From Acidobacteriota bacterium (GTDB taxonomy: Bacteria; Acidobacteriota; CAIWXX01), in assembly GCA_016191015.1 (NCBI GenBank), contig JACPPM010000207.1, positions 1-34,370 of the forward strand: DNA of 34,370 nucleotides. Reading direction: 5' to 3'. Every line of letters begins with the position of its first letter. The stretch's first letter is position 1. Under the pieces are notes generated by a model. The model saw nothing but the letters and a program-made list of their open reading frames with translations. It had not been told where the DNA came from and searched no databases. Position numbers and translations under genes: made by a program. Below, piece by piece: positions 3,662 to 5,248 of the stretch.

Positions 3662-3789
3662 GAAGACCGGAAGGGAAACCGCAGATTGCACCGATTACGC
3701 AGATTCCCCAGGGCGACGATCTCGCAGCCGTCAATACTCCGAGGTTGAATCTGTGAAATCTGCGGAATCTGTGGTTTCCCGGCTTTCGG
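3662..3789. repeat. AATCTGCG-word palindrome
   Basis: GGGAAACCGCAGATT near 3673 faces AATCTGTGGTTTCCC ending at 3780. The flanking GAAGACCGG and CGGCTTTCGG also pair. It shares the CAGATT words with the arms of the MITE-like elements but lacks their GGCAAAGTC ends. It is therefore a related palindrome or a remnant, not a full copy. It lies between two convergent genes. Confidence 0.6.
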
Positions 3790-3844
3790 CCTCGTTTGAC
3801 CCGACAACATGTTGGTAAGAATGGTCCGCTAAGCGGCCTGGACA

Positions 3845-4978: not shown

Positions 4979-4987
4979 GCTCACGAC
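4979..4987. repeat. Target-site duplication, left copy
   Basis: GCTCACGAC directly precedes MITE-like copy C. The same nine bases directly follow it at 5201-5209. This is the signature of a transposition event that left nine-base duplications. Confidence 0.8.
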
Positions 4988-5200
4988 CAAGGCTACGGCA
5001 AAGTCCCGGAAACCGCAGATTTCACAGATTGACTCGCAGATGTCGCCGATTGCTTCGCGCCGATCCGAGAGTGAGGAGCAATTTGCTCGTCGGTTGAAGG
5101 CTGGAAGAATCTGCGTAATCTGCGCGGAAATCTGCGCCATCTGCGGTTTCGCACGGAACGGCCTCGCCCGAGTCGGCGCCTCGACTTTGCCGCAGCCCTG
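4988..5200 (+). mobile_element. MITE-like element, copy C, with target duplication
   Basis: This 213-bp element has terminal repeats CAAGGCTACGGCAAAGTC and GACTTTGCCGCAGCCCTG (16 of 18 positions pair). It is flanked by perfect 9-bp direct repeats GCTCACGAC. It encodes no transposase and would need one in trans. Ends beginning CAGGG with duplications of 8-10 bp recall ISAs1-type insertion sequences; this is an inference from general knowledge of that family. It inserted between the divergent PP-loop and phosphodiesterase genes. Confidence 0.85.
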
Positions 5201-5209
5201 GCTCACGAC
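5201..5209. repeat. Target-site duplication, right copy
   Basis: GCTCACGAC repeats 4979-4987 exactly. Its last three bases also form the left edge of a 12-bp perfect palindrome, GACGGCGCCGTC (5207-5218), just upstream of the next promoter. Confidence 0.8.
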
Positions 5210-5218
5210 GGCGCCGTC

Positions 5219-5248
5219 TTGCCCGGCTACGCATAAACGCAATAGGAT
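5219..5248 (+). promoter_or_regulatory. Possible promoter of the phosphodiesterase gene
   Basis: TTGCCC (5219-5224) and TAGGAT (5243-5248) are separated by 18 bases, each matching four of six consensus positions. The predicted start near 5255 would give a short leader to the ATG at 5273. The perfect palindrome GACGGCGCCGTC (5207-5218) abuts the -35 and could be an operator. Confidence 0.35.

Follow-up and report, generated by a model that had tools for sequence, protein, structure and literature searches.

We found that a 213-bp element occurring three times in the window (the whole 34,370-nt stretch analysed here, positions 1 to 34,370 of contig JACPPM010000207.1 of an Acidobacteriota bacterium) is very probably a MITE of a DruA-containing subgroup of the ISAs1 family which is aimed at sigma70 promoters. 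Copies of this element lie at a fixed distance from complete promoters, which is present in the data; the aiming itself is inferred, as the evidence consists only of sequence and no transposition was observed.

A recently active MITE family

The three copies in the window are located at 27-239 (copy 1, forward), 1944-2157 (copy 2, inverted) and 4988-5200 (copy 3, forward, 213 bp, whose 18-bp ends occupy 4988-5005 and 5183-5200). The left end, CAAGGCTACGGCAAAGTC, and the right end, CAGGGCTGCGGCAAAGTC, form an imperfect 18-bp inverted repeat with 2 mismatches, i.e. 16/18 complementary, and the end pattern matched the window 6 times against 0.03 expected. Copies 1 and 3 have 97% identity and the inverted copy is 93–94% identical along its first 185 nt. 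Copy 3 is flanked by a perfect 9-bp target duplication, GCTCACGAC, at 4979-4987 and 5201-5209; a clear target duplication was not found at copies 1 and 2. There is no gene inside the element. In copy 3, CAGATT/AATCTG words make up an interior palindrome at 5009-5150, the arms of which (5009-5051 and 5108-5150) are 79% complementary. The MITE interior has an RNA fold z of −7.0 and the MITE has no match in Rfam. A preliminary description of the window had claimed three copies with 18-bp inverted-repeat ends, about 94–97% alike, with a word palindrome inside rather than a deleted transposase; these claims held, with coordinates and orientation confirmed. The 9-bp duplication which it gave for copy 3 held as well.

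A second CAGATT/AATCTG palindrome, at 3662-3795 (CCGCAGATT...AATCTGTGG), does not have ISAs1 ends and the word palindrome therefore also occurs outside the MITE. Two more intergenic word palindromes were seen at 1540-1625 and 1752-1882; one is made of CTTTGAAC words and the other is a 46-nt inverted repeat (83%) with CAGGAAG words. It is likely that the genome contains several unrelated palindromes made of short repeated words. Word clusters beyond MITE copies were rare, with at least 2 in approximately 0.4 Mb of fetched DNA from this genome (partly redundant); this count is a lower bound, as the BLAST masking was generous.

Across the draft genome (6.43 Mb, 349 contigs) we counted approximately 190–208 MITE copies: the left-arm pattern had 188 matches (control: 0) and the right-arm pattern 208 (control: 4). 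We extracted 146 distinct copies with flanks, including 90 for which both flanks were available. An 8–10-bp duplication (≤ 1 mismatch) was present at 64 of these 90 copies, compared to 0.9 for mispaired flanks, and the perfect duplications comprised 28 10-mers, 12 9-mers and 6 8-mers, so that the mode for the family is 10 bp and not the 9 bp of the preliminary description. The 87 aligned full-length copies had a median divergence of 2.3% from the 213-bp consensus and no two were identical. The MITE is thus a transposed family which spread in a burst and was recently active. This bears out the claim of a non-autonomous family with recent movement, by means of the genome-wide search for ends and flanking duplications which the preliminary description had proposed. 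At 26 of the 90 copies the duplication is absent, yet these are also positioned at promoters; older copies may have lost the duplication by decay or recombination. Many contigs of the draft terminate in or beside MITE copies (e.g. C12, C16, C44, C82, C121, C132 and C304), and the fragmentation of the assembly is probably due in large part to this repeat.

Position of the insertions relative to promoters

The fixed distance of the insertions from −35 boxes was missed by the preliminary description. TTGAC started 17–19 bp outward of an element end in 40 of 231 flanks where approximately 0.5 were expected (chance alone gives about 0.13 at each offset in 181 flanks), and every other 3-base bin held between 0 and 5. 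The shorter word TTG was found at offsets 17–19 in 74 flanks (32 left and 42 right) belonging to 68 of 145 copies, 6 of which had it on both sides. Among these TTG flanks, 36% had a −10 box (≥ 4/6 to TATAAT) at a spacer of 17 and 12% at a spacer of 18, compared to about 3% for most other spacers. A combined −35/−10 score of ≥ 8 was reached by 43% of copies at offsets 17–19 and by 1.4% at control offsets. An outward ORF start lay within 200 bp in 44 of 56 promoter-side flanks (79%) vs 67 of 116 (58%; p = 0.005).

The copies in the window also have promoter-like sequences beside them on the forward strand. Next to copy 3 there is a pair at 5219-5248 (TTGCCC 5219-5224, spacer 18, TAGGAT 5243-5248), in which TTGCCC begins 18 bp beyond the element end, 5′ of a phosphodiesterase ORF (ATG 5258; PF01663). 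Copy 2 lies immediately upstream of ispG (gcpE; PF04551), and the pair at 2174-2203 (GTGACC 2174-2179, spacer 18, TAGAAT 2198-2203) has GTGACC at offset 16, upstream of the ispG ATG at 2216; this GTGACC may be a weak −35 box of the ispG promoter. Beside copy 1, TTGAAA (259-264) is at offset 19, upstream of or at the start of a CoA-transferase ORF (276-1514).

We infer, from sequence alone, that the MITE very probably inserts about 18 bp upstream of sigma70 −35 boxes and that either end may face the promoter. It should be noted that a recognisable TTG at 17–19 is missing in about half of the copies, which could be due to decay, to non-canonical promoters or to untargeted insertion.

Elements with related ends and the putative helper

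The preliminary description had also suggested an ISAs1-like helper, and this held through a relative of the same family as the genome of the window (G002; among the genomes searched, the order is represented by just these two). Here we found decayed ISAs1 elements in which both 18-bp ends are identical to those of the MITE, left/right asymmetry included (L163:1504-2351, L192, L193, L195 and L197). The best ORF among them (L192:773-1513, 247 aa) matched NCBIfam NF033564 (ISAs1) with 81.7 bits, above the cut-off of 70, and its N-terminus had a weak DruA match. Two of the ISAs1 ends in this relative (the left flank at L192 and the right flank at L194) lie 8–10 bp from a −35 box, not 18–19 bp, a shift towards the box of roughly one turn of the helix or the length of one target duplication.

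In the genome of the window itself we found no PF13808 match and no ISAs1 transposase among the 349 contigs, and no intact helper was recovered from the assembly. It remains possible that one is concealed, because many draft contigs end inside MITE copies. A PF01609 gene on contig C8 was considered as the helper and rejected, as it has no matching ends. We did find a 444-bp element (contig C209, 8898-9341; L380:1899-2342) with ends CAGGACCACGTCAAAGTC and CAGGGGAACGTCAAAGTC, which are related to those of the MITE but variant (CA..GTCAAAGTC); it contains a DruA fragment and no transposase part. This is an internally deleted DruA-ISAs1 element and shows that the DruA-ISAs1 lineage was once in this genome. 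Separately, a stand-alone 296-aa DruA-domain ORF was seen at L200 (contig C343, 8000-10500), immediately 5′ of another long ORF which, by eye only, resembles an IS66-type transposase.

The helper is therefore likely to be an ISAs1-family element with a DruA-fused transposase. This is an inference which rests on the common ends and the deleted DruA element, since the draft does not contain an intact helper. The MITE interior and the cognate IS have no more than about 20 bp in common, and the MITE is thus not a simple deletion of the IS. When the exact 18-bp end was scanned over GTDB contigs, 50 stretches from many phyla were returned, of which only L163 and L180 (from one genome) carried the element; the others were mostly chance matches or unrelated sequence and were rejected. 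No relative of the element was found in viral contigs.

The same-family relative has MITEs of its own, of 165–195 bp (L368:1501-1665, L364:1501-1695, L376:1501-1686 and L369:1331-1518), which share the ends of the 213-bp MITE but are built of very different words (GTAAAAAGGAAAA-like) inside. All four have a TTG of a −35 box at 17–19 bp. The interiors of the two MITE families look as if different word palindromes had been captured between identical ends.

A search of the phylum revealed more elements with related ends (CAGGGCT..G.CAAAGTC) encoding a protein with both DruA and ISAs1 domains. One genome (G322) has an intact 625-aa DruA-ISAs1 ORF within a 2146-bp element present in about ten copies; the protein matched Pfam DruA with 69.7 bits, DDE_Tnp_1_assoc with 43.8 bits and NCBIfam ISAs1 with 146.9 bits, and that of another relative scored 176.4 bits for NF033564. 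Some of the elements in G322 are beside or inside one another, nested or in tandem (L285:5792-8407 and L283:2148-6404). Perfect 10-bp duplications were found for the copies in G322 and for L210, L212, L214, L215 and L293, and the −35 words recurred at the same distance: TTGACC at offset 19 for L212 (G064; 2007 bp; duplication CTCTACCTAT), TTGTTT/TATGAA at offset 18 for L210 (G290; 2028 bp; duplication GGGGTCTGAC), TTGGTC at 18 for L293 (G392) and TTGAC at 18–19 in 4 of 9 copies in G322. A DruA-ISAs1 element of 2057 bp was found with identical sequence in two plasmids of Candidatus Thiodictyon syntrophicum (L214 and L215), where it occupies different sites; the duplications are CCTCGCAGGC and GATACCCTGG, and each insertion has TTGAC at offset 19.

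In total, TTG was found at 17–19 for 9 of 14 DruA-ISAs1 elements from Acidobacteriota and the Thiodictyon plasmids, vs 2 of 11 DruA-less ISAs1 elements with clean 10-bp duplications, neither of which reached a promoter score of 8. This contrast is small (one-sided Fisher p = 0.027), nine of the 14 DruA-ISAs1 elements come from one genome and the two groups differ in ancestry. ISAs1-like loci without clean ends were excluded from the controls and a control from a Mycobacterium plasmid (L221) was left out of the count. The sequences show a fixed −35/−10 spacing for the MITE, for the different MITEs of the relative and for full-length DruA-ISAs1 elements, as they show the copy number, the duplications and the ends in common with DruA-ISAs1.

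Proposed mechanism, alternatives and known systems

In the mechanism we propose, a transposase consisting of an ISAs1 DDE domain and an N-terminal DruA domain (PF14236/DUF4338) would bind the 18-bp ends, and the element would be excised or copied and then inserted by a staggered cut which duplicates 8–10 bp (mode 10). The element end would be placed 17–19 bp ahead of the −35 hexamer, counted to its first base. The duplicated 10 bp would then span roughly −54 to −45 and the promoter would be left intact, facing either end of the element. The upstream footprint of the RNA polymerase holoenzyme extends to about −55. In the simplest model, the transposase would encounter the promoter-bound holoenzyme and insert at the upstream edge of its footprint; that RNA polymerase or promoter DNA guides the transposase is inferred. 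The DruA domain as the guide is likewise an inference, made from sequence alone and supported by correlation only. A bolder reading, which we put forward tentatively and consider more apt to fail than to hold, is that DruA is a module tethering the transposase to promoters or RNA polymerase and that it redirects insertion by an ordinary ISAs1 transposase to a point about 18 bp ahead of −35 boxes. If DruA does tether in this way, promoters or RNA polymerase may also be its site of action in Druantia and other defence systems.

It could be argued that there is no targeting, and that the MITE inserted at random with only the low-harm copies upstream of promoters surviving selection. Intergenic survivors would be expected in a gene-dense genome and the copies do adjoin genes. 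However, selection would favour a broad zone rather than 40 TTGAC words at 17–19 against 0–5 in any other 3-bp bin, and the same spacing is found in unrelated genomes and full-length elements. A 3-bp register is hard to account for by survival alone and we consider this explanation very unlikely. A further alternative, that the transposase reads promoter-like DNA (TTGACA-like words) directly and without RNA polymerase, is possible and cannot be excluded. In its favour, the TTG(AC) word is the strongest single signal; against it, the enrichment of the −10 box at spacer 17 alongside the −35 word (36% vs approximately 3%) fits a whole promoter better, although part of this enrichment would be expected anyway where −35 words lie in real promoters.

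The two remaining alternatives concern the identity of the element. A helper with a Mutator-like transposase (ISKra4, ISLre2 or TnGBS) instead of an ISAs1 transposase would agree with the very similar insertion of such elements 15–17 bp upstream of −35 boxes (PMC3942029), but elements with the same or related 18-bp ends encode an ISAs1 transposase; this is very unlikely, with the reservation that the genome of the window was not searched for Mutator-like transposases. Instead of a transposon, the repeat might be a static regulatory or structural one, either REP/RAYT-like or an RNA, as its strong palindrome, many copies and intergenic location could suggest. This is all but ruled out by duplications at 64 of 90 copies, the absence of an Rfam match and ends in common with an IS; RAYT/REP was rejected on the target duplications and a known RNA on the lack of an Rfam match.

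The reading we prefer, a DruA-ISAs1 MITE aimed at promoters, has several implications. Approximately 200 near-identical insertions, roughly half of them beside a recognisable promoter, would alter the upstream regulatory space of some 100 genes, to an order of magnitude, in a single genome, and the insertions could be used as a promoter map in an uncultured acidobacterium. ISAs1 elements with and without DruA provide a natural comparison which makes the guiding part testable, and any hint as to the binding partner of DruA would aid the understanding of the Druantia defence system.

The MITE shares CAGGG ends and 10-bp duplications with the ISAs1 family (NF033564; PF13808 + PF01609), as well as an ISAs1 DDE transposase in the cognate elements. 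It differs in that the MITE is geneless, in that the cognate transposase has an extra N-terminal DruA domain and in its positioning upstream of promoters, which is not clear in the DruA-less ISAs1 elements sampled. No report of promoter targeting by ISAs1 or of DruA in transposases was found in the literature searched, which did not cover most subscription journals. The domain is homologous to DruA of Druantia (PF14236, DUF4338), described as a GNAT-like domain (PMC10853773), but is here fused to a transposase; to our knowledge DruA has no known role in targeting. Like other bacterial MITEs the element is short and geneless, with terminal inverted repeats, target duplications and a high copy number; unlike them, it has an interior palindrome of approximately 9-bp words unrelated to the parent IS and its insertion is phased to promoters.

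The closest parallel in behaviour is with the known promoter-targeting Mutator-like elements TnGBS, ISLre2 (p-MULT 3) and the ISKra4 group (p-MULT 4) (PMC3942029). For TnGBS/ISLre2 and ISKra4-type elements, which insert 15–17 bp upstream of sigma-A −35 boxes, contact with the polymerase was proposed by those who discovered them (PMC3942029), in a paper which mentions no ISAs1 member. Both they and the MITE are inserted upstream of sigma-A/sigma70 −35 boxes at a distance that is fixed, and where the ends are near-symmetric the promoter may lie on either side (PMC3942029), whereas their Mutator-like transposases form a separate family and their distance is 15–17 bp compared to 17–19 (mode 18) for the MITE. 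The MITE appears to act like TnGBS and ISKra4 but, having the ends of ISAs1 elements, is very unlikely to be a member of the Mutator-like p-MULT group. In bacteria, transposition aimed at promoters has previously been described for a few Mutator-like elements, and its presence in an unrelated transposase family would mean that it probably arose more than once.
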